IMG/VR virus record: IMGVR_UViG_3300042402_005518
Coordinates: 1 to 20,572 of that record
Strand: one strand, 5' to 3'
DNA length: 20,572 nucleotides
Source of the DNA: a virus
Shown: positions 301 through 15,112 of the stretch, one piece after another
Layout of the letters: the number at the start of each line of letters is the position of its first letter
Numbering within the stretch: the stretch's first letter is position 1
Made by a program: the position numbers and the translations under genes
Notes under the pieces: model-generated
Told to the model about the DNA's origin: nothing
The model's database searches: none
The model's input: only the letters and a program-made list of their open reading frames with translations

Positions 301-1011
301 TTATTTGGTTAAATAATCGGACAATTTCTTCATTAAGTCAACCGATTTGTCTATTGACCCTTGAGATTTTCTTTGTGTCTCTTCGTCCAAATTTTCTTCA
401 AAATTCTTTCTTTCTTCAGGGTCGGTAAATAAATAAGCACCTGGTGTGGATGGTGAAGATACCAAGTCAAAACAGATTAATTCAAAATCGTCTTGTACTT
501 CATTTCTGTCTCCAACCTTTTTTAAAGAACCAACTCCACGAGAAGATATACCTAAAGTAACCCCTTGTCTTAATAAGTTAGCCGCTTGGTCACCCTTTGT
601 AGAGACAATCCCTCTTTCATGAAAACCTGGTGAGGTTAATAACTTTAATTTACCCATTAAAATAATACCGTCCCACCAAACATCCGTAATTATGTGAGAT
701 ACACGGTCTAAGTCAATCAATGATGACTCAGGGTGATTTAATTCAGAAAGAGATGTTCCTTTTTGAATCATCTTTTTATAGTTGTCTGATTCTCTTTTTA
801 AAATTCTTTCGGGGTAAATTCTTCCGTTTCTATTTGGTGTGTTGTATTTTTGTAATACGGCATAAAACTCAAACGGCTTTGAATGGTCTAACATATCTTT
901 CTTCATTTGTTCCATCAAATGGATATTGTTATTTTCGTTTGGGGATAGGTATCCCGCATCGTATTCAATTAATATACCACGCCCTGTGTCGTTAGGTCCT
1001 AATATCTTCAT
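301..1011 (-). CDS. 21: Prohead core protease, T4 gp21-like
   Basis: This is the maturation protease that in T4-like phages cleaves scaffold and capsid proteins inside the prohead. At 236 residues it is close to T4 gp21 in length. Family signatures are visible: a catalytic-His block ELNHPES (His93), a nucleophile block LGISSRGVG (Ser156 or Ser157) and the ICFDLVSSPSTPGA block (Asp182 is the likely third residue). The charged C-terminal tail from about residue 198 may be an inhibitory or targeting tail. The position downstream of terminase, portal and core-type genes repeats the T4 order 17-20-67/68-21; scaffold (22) and major capsid (23) would be expected further left, outside the window. A TATTTATA element lies 10 nt before the ATG. 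Which serine is catalytic cannot be settled from this one sequence. Confidence 0.92.
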   Translation of the reverse strand: MKILGPNDTGRGILIEYDAGYLSPNENNNIHLMEQMKKDMLDHSKPFEFYAVLQKYNTPNRNGRIYPERILKRESDNYKKMIQKGTSLSELNHPESSLIDLDRVSHIITDVWWDGIILMGKLKLLTSPGFHERGIVSTKGDQAANLLRQGVTLGISSRGVGSLKKVGDRNEVQDDFELICFDLVSSPSTPGAYLFTDPEERKNFEENLDEETQRKSQGSIDKSVDLMKKLSDYLTK

Positions 1012-1039: not shown

Positions 1040-1483
1040 CTAAATAAATGCTTTTTCAGTTTTAGAAACGGTAAAATCAAAATTGGGGTTTTTCTTCATA
1101 TTTTCTTGATATACAAATTTTGCAATCATTTTTAATTTGTCTTTTAGTTCGTTTGATTTAAAATCCATTTCTTTTTTCATAAAAAAAGTCATTTCCAAAT
1201 TCATAAAACTTTTTTTGTCTAATTGAATTCCACTTGTTCGTAAATCCAAATCAACAATATAATTTGGTTGGAATGTTTCTAAATCAACAATGTCTAATAT
1301 GTTGTGTTTTATGTTTCTACTTAAGTTTGCAACCACACGATTCCAATTATCACTTGAGATTACGGGGGTTGCCCATGTTTGAATATTTAGATAAACCGAT
1401 TTCAAATTTTTAGAGTCCACAGTACCATACGTCACCTTAATAGAATCAAATCCTATTATCTTTGAGGTTTTTCCTTTTTTCAT
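1040..1483 (-). CDS. Conserved-type phage protein of unknown function in the head block
   Basis: I do not recognise a named family. From the ATG chosen here the protein has 147 residues, rich in beta-type segments at first (IIGFDSIKVTYGTV, VYLNIQTWATPV) and with a Lys-rich helical C-terminal third. The open frame extends upstream to an ATG at 1525, but that extension (MYIFKNKHFICTKL) is coded by very AT-rich sequence and looks like leader; the start at 1483 gives MKKGKTSK, a more usual N-terminus. It lies between the core-type gene and the protease, the place of gp67/gp68 in T4, so a head-assembly role is possible. It faces the bS21 gene across a 95-nt divergent spacer. Confidence 0.72.
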   Translation of the reverse strand: MKKGKTSKIIGFDSIKVTYGTVDSKNLKSVYLNIQTWATPVISSDNWNRVVANLSRNIKHNILDIVDLETFQPNYIVDLDLRTSGIQLDKKSFMNLEMTFFMKKEMDFKSNELKDKLKMIAKFVYQENMKKNPNFDFTVSKTEKAFI

Positions 1484-1566
1484 TAATTTTGTACATATAA
1501 AATGTTTATTTTTAAAAATATACAAACAGAATGTATTTCAGTCAAACTTTTTTTAAATTATGGTTG

Positions 1567-1574
1567 TATTTAAT
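1567..1574 (+). promoter_or_regulatory. TATTTAAT element 4 nt before the bS21 start
   Basis: On the plus strand TATTTAAT is followed by 4 nt and the ATG at 1579. The portal gene has the same octamer 3 nt before its ATG. This geometry supports 1579 over the upstream ATG at 1531 as the start of bS21. Confidence 0.45.
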
Positions 1575-1578
1575 TTAT

Positions 1579-1773
1579 ATGCTAAAAGTTGAAATTAACA
1601 AAAATATCGGATTAGAAAAGGCCTTAAAGATTCTCAAAGGTAAGGTTATTAAAACCAAACAAAATGAAGAATTAAGAAAACGTACTGAGTATGTAAAGAA
1701 AACTACTCAAAAAAGAGAGAAAATGAAAAAGGCCAAATTTAAACAATCCATACAATTAAAAACACAATCATAA
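1579..1773 (+). CDS. rpsU: Ribosomal protein bS21 homologue
   Basis: bS21 binds the small ribosomal subunit near the 3' end of 16S rRNA, next to the anti-Shine-Dalgarno sequence. From the internal ATG the protein has 64 residues, the normal size for the Bacteroidota form, and keeps the family layout: a short beta start (MLKVEINKNIGLEKALK), then a long basic helix (LRKRTEYVKKTTQKREKMKK) and a basic tail. The frame is open from an ATG at 1531, but those 16 extra hydrophobic residues are foreign to bS21. The gene lies on the plus strand inside the minus-strand head operon and its stop overlaps the convergent gene's stop (TCATAA, 1768-1773). bS21 genes are known in several phage lineages. In flavobacterial ribosomes bS21 takes part in hiding the anti-Shine-Dalgarno sequence, so a viral copy could change initiation; that effect is inference. 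Confidence 0.88.
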   Translation: MLKVEINKNIGLEKALKILKGKVIKTKQNEELRKRTEYVKKTTQKREKMKKAKFKQSIQLKTQS

Positions 1774-2472
1774 CCCCTCGTATAAGTTCTTCAACTTAAC
1801 GTAGTTATACTTGTTGTATTCTTCTTGTTTTACAAACGAGATTGTTTCGTTAATCTTGTGTCTCATTAAATCATCGTGATTACCCTCAGACAAGACATCT
1901 AACTTGTCCAAAGTCTTTTGTTTGTATCCTTCAAACAAACCATTCAATTCCTCATCACCTTTTCCCAAAATGTCTTTTAAATTACTTTTGGTTGATTCAT
2001 CTAAAGATTCAATATAGTTCTTAATAACATTCTTTCTAATTATTTCTACTGAAGACAAAGGAATATTTAAACTTTCTTTTTGAATTGGTTTTTTAATTAG
2101 AGACTCAACAATTTGTGACTTGGCCAAAATCTTCTCTTTTAATTTTAATGGGTCAGTATTAACCAAATCATCAATTTTAGAGTATCTGTTTTCACATACT
2201 GTTGATAATATCCATTTGTCAAAACTTGCAGTTTTTACAACTTTTGATAATTCTTTAATTTGAGAAACTGATTCATTCACATATTCCTCGGCAAACGATT
2301 TATCAAATCCTTGTTCTTTTGATAACTCAGAATACAAAAAATAAATTTTTGACAAATCTTTATTCTCCAAAACTAATTTTTGGAATTTTTTTATATCCTC
2401 AGAAAGGGTCTTATCAATGTAAGATTCTGATAACAAATATTCTACTTTACTAAATTTTTCTCCAAAGTTCAT
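1768..2472 (-). CDS. Helical, charged protein in prohead-core position
   Basis: No named family is recognised. The 234-residue protein is almost entirely charged helix (Lys, Glu, Asp, Ser, Leu), with no cysteine cluster, signal peptide or membrane segment; examples are DIKKFQKLVLENKDLSK and RKNVIKNYIESLDESTK. It follows the portal gene by 11 nt and precedes the protease, where T4 has the small core proteins gp67 and gp68. A role as prohead core or portal-associated protein is inferred from position and composition only. TATTTATT lies 3 nt before the ATG. Its TGA stop overlaps the TAA stop of the convergent bS21 gene. Confidence 0.8.
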   Translation of the reverse strand: MNFGEKFSKVEYLLSESYIDKTLSEDIKKFQKLVLENKDLSKIYFLYSELSKEQGFDKSFAEEYVNESVSQIKELSKVVKTASFDKWILSTVCENRYSKIDDLVNTDPLKLKEKILAKSQIVESLIKKPIQKESLNIPLSSVEIIRKNVIKNYIESLDESTKSNLKDILGKGDEELNGLFEGYKQKTLDKLDVLSEGNHDDLMRHKINETISFVKQEEYNKYNYVKLKNLYEGL

Positions 2473-2483: not shown

Positions 2484-4337
2484 TTATGAGTTTAACAATC
2501 TATCCAATTCACCATCCATATCACCTAAAGATTTTCTCCCTTTACCCAAGTCCAAATAATCATTGGGGGTTAAAAAATCACCTTCTAATAGAATGTTATA
2601 GTTATTTCCCTTTCCTTCAGGAACTGTTTCTCCTCCCGGAGGTGGTGGTGGGGGTCCTCCTAATTCCTCACCTGAAGGTGGTCCACCAAGTTCTCCTCCC
2701 AAAGGTGGCGGTGGTGGTGTTCCAAAATCACTACCTCCAAAGTCACCTCCACCACCAAGTTCTGCACCTGGTGTTGGAACCGCTCCACCTGTTTGACCAC
2801 TAAGTTGACCATAAAGTTTGTCAACATTATCAAATAATCCGGTCTTACTAATAACCGCAGCAGTGTTTTGTAATTCGGCGGAAACCGCTCTTTCTAATCT
2901 TTGTTGTTGTAAATCCAACTTAATTTCTTCATCTGAGAATCCAAGTATGTGTTTCTTAGCCCATGATTGAGATGTTGGTGCGATACCTTCAATTGCGGTA
3001 GTTGCGTCTTTATACAATAACATTTTTTCTTTCCAAACATCAATTGCCAATAATTCGGCTTGTTTTGATGGATTTGTCAACCCTAATGTAAAGTTACCCA
3101 ATTCATCTTCAAAACCTAATAAAAACAAGTGAACAATAGCCACCTTGTTTAATTCGGCAATCATTGATTTTTGAATTCTATTAATCGTTCTTGCGAAACG
3201 AATATCCAATAATGACAAGTTTTTACCATCACCTACCGTCTCCTCAAATCCTAAGAATGCTTTTGGAATTCTTAATGCGGTTAACAATTTCTTTTGAATA
3301 TATTCAATATCCGCAATCTCCGATAAGTTTTGAGCTCCCGGTAAAGTGTCAATAGGACTTGGTGCTGACGGGTCACGAACAGGAACAAAGAAATCTTGGT
3401 CAACCGCCATTTGGTTGTATCTCATATCCACGTTACCTGTTTTTGAATCCGTAACTTGGTCTCTTTTAAAGTTATTAGCAAATTTCTGAACGTAAGGTTG
3501 AACGTCTTTATCATCCATGTTACCAACGTAAACTTTGAATACACGTCTTTCAGGTGCTCTTGATGTTCTATAAATTAACATCGCATCTTCCGCTAACACT
3601 AATTGTTTCCAAGTTCTACGTGCCTTTTCTAACATAGAAGTTCCGTATGGTAATCTTCTATCATCACCCAACAAACGGAAGTGAGCAATTTCCCACGACT
3701 GATATTCCATTTGTTTATTTTTCCAAGCAAATTTCAGGGCTTTTTGTTCATTTTGTCCCGTGGCAACCGTATTTGGTGTCATACCTCTTTCAATACGTTC
3801 CATTTCAATGTTTGGTAATTGGAAAGAACCTACAACTCCTTTTTCAGGGTCAAGTTTCAAAAACACAAAATTGTCACCATACTTACATACGTTTCTTGTC
3901 CACATTTGTAAGTTAGTGTTAACATCCAATACATTGTTAAATAAATCAGTCAAAATAGATTTAATTCTTTTTGATTCAGAATAAATCTGTAACAAATATC
4001 CGTTTTCATCTACTGTTGTAGACTCTTCAGCGTACGCATCCAAAGCCGCAGAGATTTCGGGAGTATACTCCATACTCTCATAATCATAAAATGCTGATAG
4101 TCTAGTTGGTTCGTAATAAACGGCTTGTTGGTAAAGATTATTTTCTATCTTTGCCCACTGATTAGAAAGAAATGCGGTTTGTTGTGCTTGGAGTTTTTCT
4201 AACTCGTATTGTCTTTTATCAGTAGTTCTAAGTAATTCTTTTTTATCGTACTTGTAGACAGGGGCATCTTGACCCAAAAGGGAATCAGGTCCAAAGGTTT
4301 GGGTTAACCTCTGCCATATAGTCATATTATCGCTCAT
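2484..4337 (-). CDS. 20: Portal vertex protein, T4 gp20-like
   Basis: The portal is the dodecameric ring at one capsid vertex through which DNA is packaged; it nucleates the prohead. The 617-residue protein has the gp20 layout: an N-terminal region with a Tyr/Glu-rich segment (YDYESMEYTPEISAALDAYAEE, about residues 85-106, quoted here only in part by position), a wing/stem region with RAPERRVFKVYVGNMDD, and a conserved segment with IQKKLLTALRIPKAFLGFEE and DIRFARTINRIQKSM. T4 gp20 has about 524 residues; the extra length is mainly a Gly/Pro-rich tail from residue 517 that includes runs of five and six prolines, then an acidic end. The gene comes 26 nt after terminase. A TATTTAAT element lies 3 nt before the ATG. 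Confidence 0.93.
   Translation of the reverse strand: MSDNMTIWQRLTQTFGPDSLLGQDAPVYKYDKKELLRTTDKRQYELEKLQAQQTAFLSNQWAKIENNLYQQAVYYEPTRLSAFYDYESMEYTPEISAALDAYAEESTTVDENGYLLQIYSESKRIKSILTDLFNNVLDVNTNLQMWTRNVCKYGDNFVFLKLDPEKGVVGSFQLPNIEMERIERGMTPNTVATGQNEQKALKFAWKNKQMEYQSWEIAHFRLLGDDRRLPYGTSMLEKARRTWKQLVLAEDAMLIYRTSRAPERRVFKVYVGNMDDKDVQPYVQKFANNFKRDQVTDSKTGNVDMRYNQMAVDQDFFVPVRDPSAPSPIDTLPGAQNLSEIADIEYIQKKLLTALRIPKAFLGFEETVGDGKNLSLLDIRFARTINRIQKSMIAELNKVAIVHLFLLGFEDELGNFTLGLTNPSKQAELLAIDVWKEKMLLYKDATTAIEGIAPTSQSWAKKHILGFSDEEIKLDLQQQRLERAVSAELQNTAAVISKTGLFDNVDKLYGQLSGQTGGAVPTPGAELGGGGDFGGSDFGTPPPPPLGGELGGPPSGEELGGPPPPPPGGETVPEGKGNNYNILLEGDFLTPNDYLDLGKGRKSLGDMDGELDRLLNS
2619..2789 (-). repeat. Gly/Pro-rich low-complexity tail of the portal gene
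   Basis: Residues 517-573 of the portal are built from GG, ELGG, PSGEELGG and PPPPP blocks. The degenerate repeats make an unstructured, probably flexible stretch. The plus-strand open frame here is only its shadow. Confidence 0.7.
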
Positions 4338-4363: not shown

Positions 4364-6139
4364 TTATCTAAACCCCATTCCTCCAAAGACCCATCTATAA
4401 TCTTGATAATCTTGTCTGGTTGGTTGATTTCTATAAACATTTTTATCGGATTCCCTATCATTGAATACAGGTATGTTAGGATTAAAACTTGTTACGTCTG
4501 AATTGTCATGAGAGTTTACCGCCCAAGATTCTAACATAACTTTTGTTAAATCGTCCACCTTTTTCAATTGAGCGAATGATAACTCACTTACGTAAATTCC
4601 CATCGCCAAACTCATTAATAAGTCATCATGTTGACCTTTCATGTGGTCAGGTCTTCCATTAAGATAAACAAATGTGTTCATCTCATTTAACAGTCTCAAT
4701 GAGTAAATCCTAAACCCATGTCTAATCGCTTCTTCAAAGGCACTGATAATTTGAACACGTTTTGAGTTAAAGTTAATACCGGGTATTTTGTCGGCGGTTT
4801 TTGGGTCAAATTTCCATTTATTCCCCATCTCAACACCATCCACATATAAATCTCTGTAACCTAGTTCTTGGAGTTTTCTTGATGTGGCAACACCCATACC
4901 GCCTGTAATATCAACAACAATATATGCCGAATACATGGTGGCCCATTTGTATGCAATTTCCGCCAACATATCAGGTGGTGTCTTTCCAACATATTCCAAA
5001 ACCTGTTCTCTTTCATCAAAATCTATGATTTGGATAGATGAAAAATCTTCAGAGTCTCCACGAGATACGTCTACACCCATTACATATTTGTGCCCCATTT
5101 GTGGTTCTTTCCATATCCATAAACTATTTGCCATCATTTTAGATGATGGTTCTTTAATCATGGTTTCAGATAATTTTTGTAGAAGGTTTGAGTCAAATAC
5201 GTTATCACCCGAACCCAAGAAATTACACTCTAACTCCTGAGATATTTTTCTTTTATCATACTTTAACTTTTTAACCATTGACTCAAACCATGCCGAACAT
5301 GGCTTGTATCCTTTGTCAATAAGTTCTTTAACATATTCAATGTCCCTTTGATACGGGTCACCGCTCAAATCAAGTATCTCTGTGTTTGGATAATTGTTTC
5401 TATCTAATAAAAAATCAACCAAACTGTCCGTCTTAACCATTTGTAAGTCTCGAGTATAACGTGGGTCACGGTACCAATACATGTCGGATACCTTGAATTC
5501 GTTTACTCCTTTAGAGGCTTGTTCGTAGATACTATAGTAAATTGGGTCGTATCCGTTTGGTGTTGAAATAACTATCACTTTACCACCTGTAGAAAGTGAC
5601 GCCATACAAGCCGCCCAAAAATCATCATCGGCATCAATGTACGCCGCCTCGTCAAATATAAGTATGGTTGGGGTATAACCACGAAGTGCATCTTTTGATG
5701 TTGCAACGGCTTTTACTTCACATTTGTTTGTTAGTTTGAAGTGTCTTGCGGCGTTCTTTTCAGGTGAGAAACCAACATTAACCCATTTTGGCCATTGTTC
5801 GGTAAATTCCCTAACTTTGTTTGCCATTTCCACCGCAGTATCCAATTTGTTGGCGATTATCAATATTTTTTCGGGTTTGTTTTTGTTTGCAAACACCAAT
5901 CTTTTTGATACCCAAGCTGCGGTAACTGTAGATACACCAGCCTGACGATATTTTAAAGCAATATTTTCATTGTAAGAATCATAATCCTGAATCAATCTAA
6001 CTTGGTCAGGAAACAATTCTAACGGAACGTATTTTGATTGAGTGTTATCGTAAGTATGTAAATACGTTTTTAGTGCGTATGGTGTATTCTTAATACACCT
6101 TGCAGTTTCTAAAAGTAATTGTTCTTTAGTTATAGCCAT
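4364..6139 (-). CDS. 17: Terminase large subunit, T4 gp17-like
   Basis: This is the DNA-packaging motor: an ATPase that pumps DNA into the prohead through the portal and a nuclease that cuts the concatemer. The 591 residues (T4 gp17 has 610) show the ATPase Walker A KYRQAGVST (63-71), Walker B TILIFDEAAY with Asp163-Glu164, and the coupling motif ISTPNG (191-196). The RNase H-like nuclease domain follows with metal-binding acids in GVDVSRGDSED (Asp357), IVVDITGGMG (Asp410) and QHDDLLMSLAMG (Asp505/506). No intein or frameshift is seen. An intrinsic terminator hairpin, with a TATTTATT element in its centre, lies directly before the ATG. Confidence 0.97.
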   Translation of the reverse strand: MAITKEQLLLETARCIKNTPYALKTYLHTYDNTQSKYVPLELFPDQVRLIQDYDSYNENIALKYRQAGVSTVTAAWVSKRLVFANKNKPEKILIIANKLDTAVEMANKVREFTEQWPKWVNVGFSPEKNAARHFKLTNKCEVKAVATSKDALRGYTPTILIFDEAAYIDADDDFWAACMASLSTGGKVIVISTPNGYDPIYYSIYEQASKGVNEFKVSDMYWYRDPRYTRDLQMVKTDSLVDFLLDRNNYPNTEILDLSGDPYQRDIEYVKELIDKGYKPCSAWFESMVKKLKYDKRKISQELECNFLGSGDNVFDSNLLQKLSETMIKEPSSKMMANSLWIWKEPQMGHKYVMGVDVSRGDSEDFSSIQIIDFDEREQVLEYVGKTPPDMLAEIAYKWATMYSAYIVVDITGGMGVATSRKLQELGYRDLYVDGVEMGNKWKFDPKTADKIPGINFNSKRVQIISAFEEAIRHGFRIYSLRLLNEMNTFVYLNGRPDHMKGQHDDLLMSLAMGIYVSELSFAQLKKVDDLTKVMLESWAVNSHDNSDVTSFNPNIPVFNDRESDKNVYRNQPTRQDYQDYRWVFGGMGFR

Positions 6140-10174: not shown

Positions 10175-11050
10175 TTAGTTGTTTAGTCCGTTAGGTCCTC
10201 CAATAGCAACCGCATTCATTTGTACAATTGATATGTTTTCTTGAGCGTTTGATGCTACAGGATGTGGAACTGTTGTTGGTGTAAAAGTAAATCCTGTGAG
10301 ACCTTCATCAGGACAAACAATACACATAAAATATTCAGTACCCTCTTCAATTGTGTAGAAACTTGTTAATGAAGGTGTTGGTGTAGTTGTTGGTGTTGGT
10401 GTTCTTGTTGGTGTTACTGTTTTTGTAGGTGTAATAGTCGGTGTTACACTAATTGTTGGAGTAACTGTTGGTGTTCTAGTAACCGTTGGTGTCACCGTAC
10501 GTGTTGGTGTTACAGTTGGTGTAGTTGTTGGTGTTGGTGTTTTAGTTGATGTTACCGACGGTGTTACAGTTGGAGTCACCGTGCGTGTAGGTGTGATACT
10601 TGGAGTTATACTTGGGGTTGGTGTAACTGTTGGGGTTTTAGTAACAGTTGGCGTTACAGTACGTGTAGGAGTAACTGTAGGGGTTTGAGTCCTTGTTACT
10701 GAAGGTGTGGGGGTTTGTGTTCTTGTTGGTGTAACTGTTGGGGTTCTTGTAACTGTTGGTGTTACCGTTCTTGTTGGGGTAATTGAAGGTGTTGGAGTAA
10801 CAGTTGATGTTGGTGTCGGGGTTGGTGTTGGGTTATCCGCAAGACAATCAGGACAACTATTTACGAATGAATCTGCGGTTAGAACTGTAAGAGGGAAGCC
10901 ATATGTTGTTATCGCACCAACGGTAAAACATCCAGGAGGAGTATCACCAGGAAAAGTTAAATAATATACTTGATTACCTATAACGGGTAATGAACCAAAA
11001 TCTGCTGTATAATCGCCCGAGGTACAACCGGAAATAAATCTTATTGCCAT
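10175..11050 (-). CDS. Thr-Pro-repeat virion-type protein with Cys-rich ends
   Basis: The 291-residue protein consists of an N-terminal Cys-containing beta-type domain (1-73; Cys9, Cys41, Cys66, Cys69, with [16 protein letters not shown] and CPDCLADNP), a linker of about 156 residues made almost only of Thr and Pro with Val, Ser, Arg and Ile (74-229, [15 protein letters not shown] type), and a C-terminal domain of 62 residues with CIVCPDE. There is no signal peptide. Mucin-like TP linkers occur in phage fibres and adhesins as extended spacers, so a surface fibre, head decoration or receptor-contact role is plausible but not shown. TATTTATA lies 10 nt before the ATG. Confidence 0.8.
10364..10831 (-). 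repeat. Degenerate short tandem repeat coding for a Thr-Pro linker
   Basis: About 470 bases of ACnCCn-type repeats (GGTGTTACTGTTGG-like units on the plus strand) encode alternating Thr-Pro. Units are imperfect with varying third bases, so this is an old or selected array and probably prone to slippage. Confidence 0.85.
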
Positions 11051-12482: not shown

Positions 12483-12959
12483 TTAAGATTTTAATTCTTT
12501 AATCTTGTCTCGTAGTTTTATCGCTTCTTCAAAGTCTTGTTTGTCAATTGCAATCTTTAATTCAACTTCCAATTTATCAATGTGGGCCTTATTGATTTCC
12601 GTTCTTTTGATTTGGTCTCTTAATTGAGCCGCTTTTTCAAAATCTTGGTTTTCAACACATTTCTCCAACTCGTTTTTTAATGAAGATAACGTATCATTAC
12701 CTTTTTTACTTGGTTTGTTAGGTAATCCACCAAGGTATGTTGTAGTGACAGTGTATCTAGTACCATTTGGTGATATGTATGTTGTTTTAATCCATTCACC
12801 ATCTTCAGTTTCGACTTCTTCTTTTTTAACTTTATCTTCCAAAGAAGATTCGGTAGTTGAATGTAAATCATAGTTTAGGGTTTCATCCATCATTTCGTTT
12901 AACTCATCCATCATTTGTTTTAATGATTTTCCGTAATTTTTTCCAAATAAATTGAACAT
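12483..12959 (-). CDS. Small protein with two UVR motifs, possible Clp partner
   Basis: The 158-residue protein has an N-terminal segment (MFNLFGKNYGKSLKQMMDEL), a middle beta-type region (WIKTTYISPNGTRYTVTTTY, 56-75) and two C-terminal UVR motifs, at about 93-118 (LEKCVENQDFEKAAQLRDQI) and 130-155 (ELKIAIDKQDFEEAIKLRDK). UVR motifs are helical hairpins that mediate protein contacts in UvrB, UvrC, McsA and the middle domain of ClpC. There are no zinc-finger CxxC pairs, so it is not a full McsA. It is divergent from the ClpC-like gene, whose middle domain carries a related motif (KYEEAAELRNKEKKV), so an adaptor or regulator role is a reasonable inference. A link to DNA repair is the alternative. 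A terminator follows. Confidence 0.82.
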   Translation of the reverse strand: MFNLFGKNYGKSLKQMMDELNEMMDETLNYDLHSTTESSLEDKVKKEEVETEDGEWIKTTYISPNGTRYTVTTTYLGGLPNKPSKKGNDTLSSLKNELEKCVENQDFEKAAQLRDQIKRTEINKAHIDKLEVELKIAIDKQDFEEAIKLRDKIKELKS

Positions 12960-13102: not shown

Positions 13103-15112
13103 ATGATTGAATCTATGGACGATAACGACAACATTAAACCATCCTCAAAACGTGGTAGCTCATCAACACCAGTATTGGACAACTTTTCTAAAGACCTTAT
13201 TAAATCAGCGTCTGAAGGTAAGTTGGACCCCGTAGTTGGTAGAGAACAAGAAATTCAACGAATTGCCCAAATCCTATCTCGTAGGAAGAAAAACAACCCA
13301 ATCATCATTGGTGAACCAGGTTGTGGTAAAACAGCAATCGTAGAAGGATTGGCTATGAAAATTTTTAACGGTGATTGCCCACGAAACCTTTTGAACAAAC
13401 GAATCGTTTTGTTGGACATGACCTCAATTGTTGCGGGAACCAAATACCGTGGACAGTTTGAGGAACGTTTGAAAGTAATCATTGACGAACTTTCTAAGAA
13501 TCCTGACATTGTAATTTTCATTGATGAAATTCACACCATCGTTGGTGCTGGAAATGCTTCAGGTTCTATGGACGCATCAAACATCTTTAAACCCGCACTT
13601 GCTCGTGGAGAGATTCAATGTATTGGGGCAACAACATTGGACGAGTATCGTACTAACTTTGAAAAAGATGGGGCTTTGGAACGTCGATTCCAAAAAGTCG
13701 TAGTTGACTCACCATCTAAAAAAGAGACCCTCATTATTCTCAAAAACTTGAGAAGCAAATATGAGTCTTATCACAAAGTAAGTTATTCTGATGAAGTACT
13801 TGAACTATGTGTTAACCTTGCTGACCGATACATCACAGACCGTGAGTTTCCCGACAAAGCGTTCGACATTATGGATGAAGTTGGTGCCCGTGCTCAAGTT
13901 GAAGCAAAAGTTCCTGAAAGTATTGAAAAGTTGACCTCGGCTCTTCGTGAGATTGGTGAGAAGAAAAAAGAAGTGGTAAAGAAACAAAAGTACGAAGAGG
14001 CTGCTGAGCTAAGGAACAAAGAAAAGAAAGTTGCCGCCAAATTAGAGGCGGAGAAAGAAAAGTATGAACAAGAAATCTCTGAAAAGAAAAGAGAAATCTC
14101 GTTGGAACTTGTCTTGGATGTCGTTTCTTCAATGACAAAAATTCCTGTGTCAAAAATCTCTGTTGATGACAAAACAAACTTAATTGGTTTGGATAAGTCA
14201 TTAATGGATAACGTTATCGGACAAGAAGAAGCGGTTACCAAAATCGCAAAATCAATCCGTAGAAACCGATTGGGTATTAAAGACCCAAATAAACCCATCG
14301 GTTCATTTATTTTCTTGGGTTCAACAGGTGTAGGTAAAACTCACTTGGCAAAACAACTGGCAAAACAAATCTTCGGTAATGAGAACAACCTCATCCGTGT
14401 GGATATGTCAGAGTTCCAAGAAAAACATACCATTTCCAAATTGATTGGAGCCCCTCCAGGTTATGTTGGTTATGATGAAGGTGGACAATTAACTGAACAA
14501 GTTAAGAATAAACCTTATTCAGTAATCCTTTTTGATGAAGTTGAAAAGGCGAACAAAGAAATCTTCAATACATTGTTACAGATGTTAGACGAAGGTCACC
14601 TGACCGATTCTTTGGGTAGAAAAATCAATTTCAAGAATTGTTTGATTATTATGACATCAAACTTGGGTGTAAAAAAACTTCAAGATTTTGGAAACGGTAT
14701 TGGTTTCAATACTTTATCAAGTTCATCAACTCAAGAAGAGTACAAACGTCAGATTCTCCAAAAAGAGATGAAGAACTATTTCTCTCCTGAGTTCTTGAAC
14801 CGTATTGATGAGGTTATTGTATTCAATTCTTTGAAACAACCTGAAATTGAACAAATTGTTCGTCTTGAAATGTCAAAATTGGTTAATCGTTTGGAGGAGT
14901 TGAAATTACACTTCGTTTGTGACGAGTCAATGATTCAACACATTGCCAAGGTAGGTTTTGATGAGGCGTTTGGTGCACGACCAATTAAAAGAGCTATTCA
15001 GGATGAAGTAGAAGACTTTATCTCAGAAGAATACTTGGTGGGTAATGTTGTGGAAAACGAACATTATATCCTAAAGTATGATGAATCAATCAAAATAGAA
15101 AAGGGGTCATAA
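13103..15112 (+). CDS. clpC: ClpC-like AAA+ unfoldase lacking the N-domain
   Basis: ClpC unfolds proteins and feeds them into the ClpP peptidase. This 669-residue copy has both AAA+ modules: D1 with Walker A GEPGCGKT (70-77), pore loop KYRGQF (115-119 region) and Walker B IVIFIDE (136-142); D2 with Walker A GSTGVGKT (406-413), pore loop GYVGY (453-457) and Walker B VILFDE (474-479). Between them is a short ClpC-type middle domain with a UVR-like motif (QKYEEAAELRNKEKK, about 295-309). IGF at 533-535 is at the ClpP-docking loop. The roughly 150-residue N-domain is replaced by a 25-residue Ser-rich start, hence the length below the usual 810-850. The flanks (TPVLDNF, LDPVVGRE, ILSRRKKNNP) are close to Bacteroidota ClpC, which suggests acquisition from a host. 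No clpP is in the window. It has its own promoter and terminator. Confidence 0.95.
   Translation: MIESMDDNDNIKPSSKRGSSSTPVLDNFSKDLIKSASEGKLDPVVGREQEIQRIAQILSRRKKNNPIIIGEPGCGKTAIVEGLAMKIFNGDCPRNLLNKRIVLLDMTSIVAGTKYRGQFEERLKVIIDELSKNPDIVIFIDEIHTIVGAGNASGSMDASNIFKPALARGEIQCIGATTLDEYRTNFEKDGALERRFQKVVVDSPSKKETLIILKNLRSKYESYHKVSYSDEVLELCVNLADRYITDREFPDKAFDIMDEVGARAQVEAKVPESIEKLTSALREIGEKKKEVVKKQKYEEAAELRNKEKKVAAKLEAEKEKYEQEISEKKREISLELVLDVVSSMTKIPVSKISVDDKTNLIGLDKSLMDNVIGQEEAVTKIAKSIRRNRLGIKDPNKPIGSFIFLGSTGVGKTHLAKQLAKQIFGNENNLIRVDMSEFQEKHTISKLIGAPPGYVGYDEGGQLTEQVKNKPYSVILFDEVEKANKEIFNTLLQMLDEGHLTDSLGRKINFKNCLIIMTSNLGVKKLQDFGNGIGFNTLSSSSTQEEYKRQILQKEMKNYFSPEFLNRIDEVIVFNSLKQPEIEQIVRLEMSKLVNRLEELKLHFVCDESMIQHIAKVGFDEAFGARPIKRAIQDEVEDFISEEYLVGNVVENEHYILKYDESIKIEKGS

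Follow-up and report, generated by a model that had tools for sequence, protein, structure and literature searches.

A bS21 gene on the reverse strand amid the genes for the terminase large subunit (TerL), portal protein, protease, and capsid protein has been described for Bacteroidetes jumbo phages by Chen et al. (2022, PMC9723584). RNA data revealed late, not early, expression of the phage bS21, and the region was not transcribed as a single operon. The aromatic residue 54 was conserved in the phage proteins, the N-terminal half was divergent, and it was proposed that phage bS21 replaces the host bS21 and favours phage transcripts. Two outgroups without bS21 also lacked a neighbouring gene, bS21_CN. 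The cellular protein has been characterized in Flavobacterium johnsoniae (McNutt et al. 2023, PMC9976891). Its Tyr54 stacks on the strand carrying the anti-Shine-Dalgarno (anti-SD) sequence, and in vitro the protein yield from an SD template was threefold higher with Y54A ribosomes. The host genes are SD-less, and the host ribosomes already ignore the SD motif. The host rpsU gene, which encodes bS21, is subject to SD-based autoregulation, and bS21-free F. johnsoniae ribosomes make more bS21. A further phage-encoded bS21, from the Pelagibacter phage HTVC008M, enters E. coli ribosomes (Mizuno et al. 2019, PMC6375957), but both phage and host group differ from the present case, and the host is not a member of the Bacteroidota.

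The stretch of viral DNA analyzed here (20,572 nt, IMG/VR record IMGVR_UViG_3300042402_005518; the window) is a further member of the group of Chen et al., so that the arrangement of its bS21 gene is already published. The genomes of that study have about 300 kb; the window is a 20.6-kb fragment, and a near-relative contig, G001, has 268.7 kb. As in clades a-e of the published phages, bS21 lies opposite to TerL, portal, and protease and between two hypothetical genes, residue 54 is aromatic, and a Clp-type gene is also present. The residue in the window is Phe54, with one case in the published set and 6 cases among the 74 distinct proteins compared here. The host probably belongs to the Bacteroidota, the host evidence being that for the related phages (PMC9723584). 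The features of the locus are as follows:

301..1011, minus strand: prohead protease (PF03420, 81.6 bits)
1040..1483, minus strand: N2, alpha/beta protein divergent from bS21, function unknown (AlphaFold2 pLDDT 90; present in 144 of 146 bS21 loci)
1504..1546, minus strand: divergent promoter-like element of N2, with TTTGAC (1546-1541), TATATTTTT (1522-1514), and AATAAAC (1510-1504), compared in 52 relatives
1567..1572, plus strand: TATTTA box, promoter-like, 12 nt before the bS21 ATG (TATTT[AGC] at 12-13 nt in 31 of 52 leaders)
1579..1773, plus strand: viral bS21 of 64 aa, with a Phe corresponding to Tyr54 of F. johnsoniae (PF01165, 31.5 bits; PDB bS21 matches; dN/dS 0.055-0.077; 146 viral loci)
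1768..2472, minus strand: N1, all-helical protein between portal and bS21, function unknown (AlphaFold2 pLDDT 83; beside bS21 in 146 of 146 bS21 loci)
2484..4337, minus strand: T4-type portal protein (PF07230, 268.5 bits)
4364..6139, minus strand: terminase large subunit (PF03237, 45.6 bits; PHROG 2)

The Pfam match of the bS21 gene (E 1.5e-7) was above the cut-off of 27 bits and spanned nearly the entire domain (profile positions 2-51 of 55). The bS21 chains in the PDB also matched the open reading frame, including that of F. johnsoniae (7JIL, E 1.3e-4), and the dN/dS values, obtained against four close relatives (L008, L009, L010, and L012), showed strong purifying selection. The identity given in the original prediction was thus borne out, as was the resemblance to flavobacterial bS21, and the protein retains at position 54 the aromatic type of residue that stacks on the anti-SD strand. 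The TIGR00030 score of 26.7 bits was just below the equivalog cut-off of 28.95, as expected for a divergent viral copy, and by the rule of this model the protein classifies as a divergent family member and not as an equivalog of cellular bS21. An alternative start at 1531 was dropped, because the N-termini of all relatives align with the methionine at 1579. A collection of cultured phages yielded only two relatives of the window, both weak and partial.

Two scans of viral contigs were performed, and the best 80 loci with a bS21 query and the best 80 with a portal query were kept. In all 146 viral loci with bS21, the gene was antisense to terminase, portal, N1, N2, and protease, whichever were present; these counts describe the top matches kept, including some copies and overlapping records, and are not natural frequencies. 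The predicted location on the opposite strand was therefore confirmed, portal, terminase, and protease all being on the minus strand and bS21 on the plus strand. It had also been said to lie between prohead genes, which is correct by position, but its direct neighbours N1 and N2 belong to no known family. Profile searches with both proteins gave no family, a PDB search with N2 gave no significant match, and the AlphaFold2 structure predictions did not lead to a named function. The term operon turned out to be loose, as promoter-like motifs precede several genes of the head region and the region is not one transcription unit in the published phages (PMC9723584). The location is also not unusual, as had been thought, but is the fixed place of bS21 in the published group and in the viral loci scanned. 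The stop codons of the convergent genes N1 and bS21 overlap within 6 bp (1768-1773), so that there is no space for a terminator between them, and the transcripts may overlap.

Further genes of the window include one for a low-complexity, possibly surface-exposed protein with Thr-Pro repeats (TPTPTVTPT...; 10175-11050, minus strand) and one for a ClpB/ClpA-like ATPase of 669 aa (13103-15112, plus strand), in which a GIGF stretch resembles a ClpP-binding loop. Divergent from the latter is a gene whose small product has two UVR motifs, as in Clp adaptors (12483-12959, minus strand; PF02151, 65.5 bits). This pair is a candidate for the protease removing host bS21 that was imagined by McNutt et al. 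(PMC9976891).

The bS21 gene is preceded by its own promoter-like box. For TATTT[AGC] at 12-13 nt, found in 31 of the 52 non-redundant bS21 leaders, the null mean was 0.8 and the highest value in 300 null runs was 4, and on the other strand TTTGAC-N16-21-TAnn[TC]TT preceded N2 in 40 of the 52 relatives, against a null of 0.05; these nulls do not correct for common descent, although conservation is poor at some positions between the boxes. The element before N2 resembles the Bacteroidota promoter, and its AATAAAC part was present in 42 of the 52 relatives. Taken alone, the TATTTA copy of the window matched a strict late-gene motif weakly (p about 0.05). The matrix for this motif explained only 23% of the bS21 leaders and had been built from its own pattern, and the looser TATTT box was used instead. 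In the 268-kb relative, 97 of 345 ORFs had TATTTA[AT] 8-30 nt ahead of them, most often at 12 nt; a control interval gave 10 and the reverse complement 18. It also preceded the protease gene in 34 of 36 and N1 in 62 of 65 relatives. In the window and in G001, TATTTAT was found mostly 12-24 nt before the ATG of many genes, in an orientation opposite to that of the T4 late box TATAAATA. TATTTAT is perhaps a late promoter of these phages. The box before bS21 is promoter-like in sequence and position, but it could be something else. As a -10 element, it would leave the bS21 mRNA with almost no leader.

No SD motif is present between this box and the bS21 start codon. The original prediction that the phage genes lack SD motifs was supported: an SD core was found in 0 of 23 window genes (mean pairing energy -0.82, compared with -1.07 for shuffles) and in 9 of 345 ORFs of the 268-kb relative (median -1.5, mean -1.72, compared with a shuffle mean of -1.34). 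The bS21 leaders follow this pattern. The 71 distinct viral bS21 leaders had a median of -1.2 kcal/mol, did not differ from shuffles (p 0.09), and in no case contained the classic 5-nt SD core. In contrast, the rpsU leaders of Flavobacterium have an extended SD motif, with a median of -19.7 kcal/mol (42 distinct leaders), and 35 of 50 leaders in a wider Bacteroidota sample were at or below -8. The window leader, at -2.7 kcal/mol, has no such extended motif. Judged by its leader, the viral bS21 gene is without the SD switch by which the host controls its own rpsU copy. This is the most useful addition made here to the published picture; a literature search retrieved no report of SD-bearing host rpsU leaders versus SD-less viral bS21 leaders, though one may exist. 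The SD-less leader may be a default rather than a selected trait, because the genes of these phages hardly use SD motifs.

On the protein level, the viral copy shares with Flavobacterium rpsU (PMC9976891) the family and the type of the C-terminal residue contacting the anti-SD, whereas residues 20-28, the SD-less leader, and the TATTT box of its own set it apart. At residue 54, all 80 Flavobacterium-like loci have Tyr, and the 74 distinct viral proteins have Tyr (58), His (10), or Phe (6), the ring being retained also by Phe and His. K40, R46, K51, A52, and Q56 were kept or nearly kept. Residues 18-31 differ from the host across the viral proteins, as noted by Chen et al., and the difference is systematic at residues 20-28, where the host has KRKFDKTGT and most viral proteins have K[GS]KVIKTKQ. 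A comparison of the residues facing the anti-SD sequence had been suggested; of these, the aromatic residue 54 was kept. In a tree of only 64 columns, the viral proteins formed one clade (100/99; stem of 0.85 changes per site), which was placed nearest to the Flavobacteriaceae with weak support. A basal position in the tree was taken by the bS21 of locus L217 (8908-9084, minus strand), which resembles that of the window in the C-terminal half (NTTKKREKMKKAKY) and differs in the N-terminal half; recombination is possible.

Not all relatives have the gene. Among 70 loci of the portal scan with both N1 and N2, bS21 was present in 66 and absent in 4 (L219, L222, L224, and L237), and it was not found elsewhere on these four contigs, which may be fragments. 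In L222, L224, and L237 the promoter-like element of N2 directly follows the N1 stop codon, whereas in L219 a hairpin and a T-run lie between the N1 stop and this element. As L219 and the L222/L224 pair are located in two separate places within bS21-bearing groups of the portal tree, the simplest account is that bS21 was precisely lost at least twice. Therefore, the basic life cycle does not require bS21, and N1 and N2, which persist in these relatives, are not strictly tied to it, in contrast to the bS21_CN of Chen et al.

The bS21-less relatives also bear on the proposal that exchange of host for viral bS21 tunes ribosomes to SD-less viral leaders. The SD energies of the bS21-less G002 and G005 were like those of the bS21-bearing G001, G007, and G008, and the TATTTA frequencies were also similar (0.30 and 0.21 compared with 0.23-0.28). 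SD-less leaders were thus ruled out as an explanation of viral bS21, because related bS21-less phages of two lineages are equally SD-less, and host ribosomes ignore the SD motif already; the proposal is unsupported. Shorter late leaders in bS21 phages were considered as well. TATTTA at 11-13 nt is scarce in G002 and G005, but it is also infrequent in the bS21-bearing G008 (9 of 36), and in many bS21 phages TATTTA lies at 21-24 nt in the N1 leader, so that this idea was dropped. A shifted mRNA preference might rest on a feature other than SD-less leaders.

We therefore turn to what the viral protein might do in the host. On balance, we lean towards the view that a late-made viral bS21 enters the host 30S subunit, keeps the anti-SD hidden, and escapes the host feedback loop, which should in turn depress host rpsU. 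This view joins the present observations (homology, selection, context, losses, the SD-less viral versus the SD-bearing host leader, and the conserved promoter-like boxes) to late expression, Tyr54 stacking, and host autoregulation as published (PMC9723584, PMC9976891). Late in infection, the protein would be expressed from a promoter of its own, though its gene is antisense to the head genes, and would take the bS21 site through its conserved C-terminal half, presumably displacing host bS21. The aromatic residue 54 would keep the anti-SD strand tucked away, and the changed residues 18-31 might modify the surface close to the mRNA as it enters. Unlike that of host rpsU, the synthesis from the SD-less mRNA would not depend on bS21-free ribosomes. 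Because of this missing SD motif, viral bS21 would build up independently of the feedback loop, and it may depress rpsU translation as it refills the ribosomes that lack bS21. A stronger form, to be regarded as tentative, is a feedback lock, in which filling of the bS21-free ribosomes by the SD-less viral copy would shut off SD-dependent rpsU synthesis and render the replacement of host bS21 self-sustaining.

Two other explanations are both rather unlikely in our view. A shift of mRNA choice towards phage transcripts by the altered N-terminal helix and linker, as in the original prediction and in Chen et al., would agree with the differences at residues 18-31 and with late co-expression with the head genes (PMC9723584), but no tested leader feature separates bS21-bearing phages from G002 and G005, and the host genes are likewise SD-less (PMC9976891). 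To a similarly low degree of probability, viral bS21 might work like that of the host and simply top up the pool as host synthesis declines in the late phase of infection. bS21 is among the last proteins added to the 30S subunit and can dissociate, the C-terminal positions and the aromatic residue 54 are kept under strong purifying selection, and a supply that helps but can be done without is compatible with repeated loss; yet the fixed viral signature at residues 20-28 hints at more than simple replacement of the host protein. A non-ribosomal role with reuse of the ribosomal fold, e.g. in RNA binding or in head packaging, a possibility raised by Chen et al. (PMC9723584), would suit the fixed place among the head genes but is highly improbable, as conservation extends to the C-terminal positions linked to anti-SD contact, most notably residue 54.

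The ribosomal protein that viruses encode most often is bS21, and its role in phages is putative. Through the natural losses, phages carrying the gene can be compared with matched ones that lack it, and the difference between SD-bearing host rpsU and SD-less viral leaders turns a vague idea of takeover into one that is directly testable with the existing F. johnsoniae reporters.
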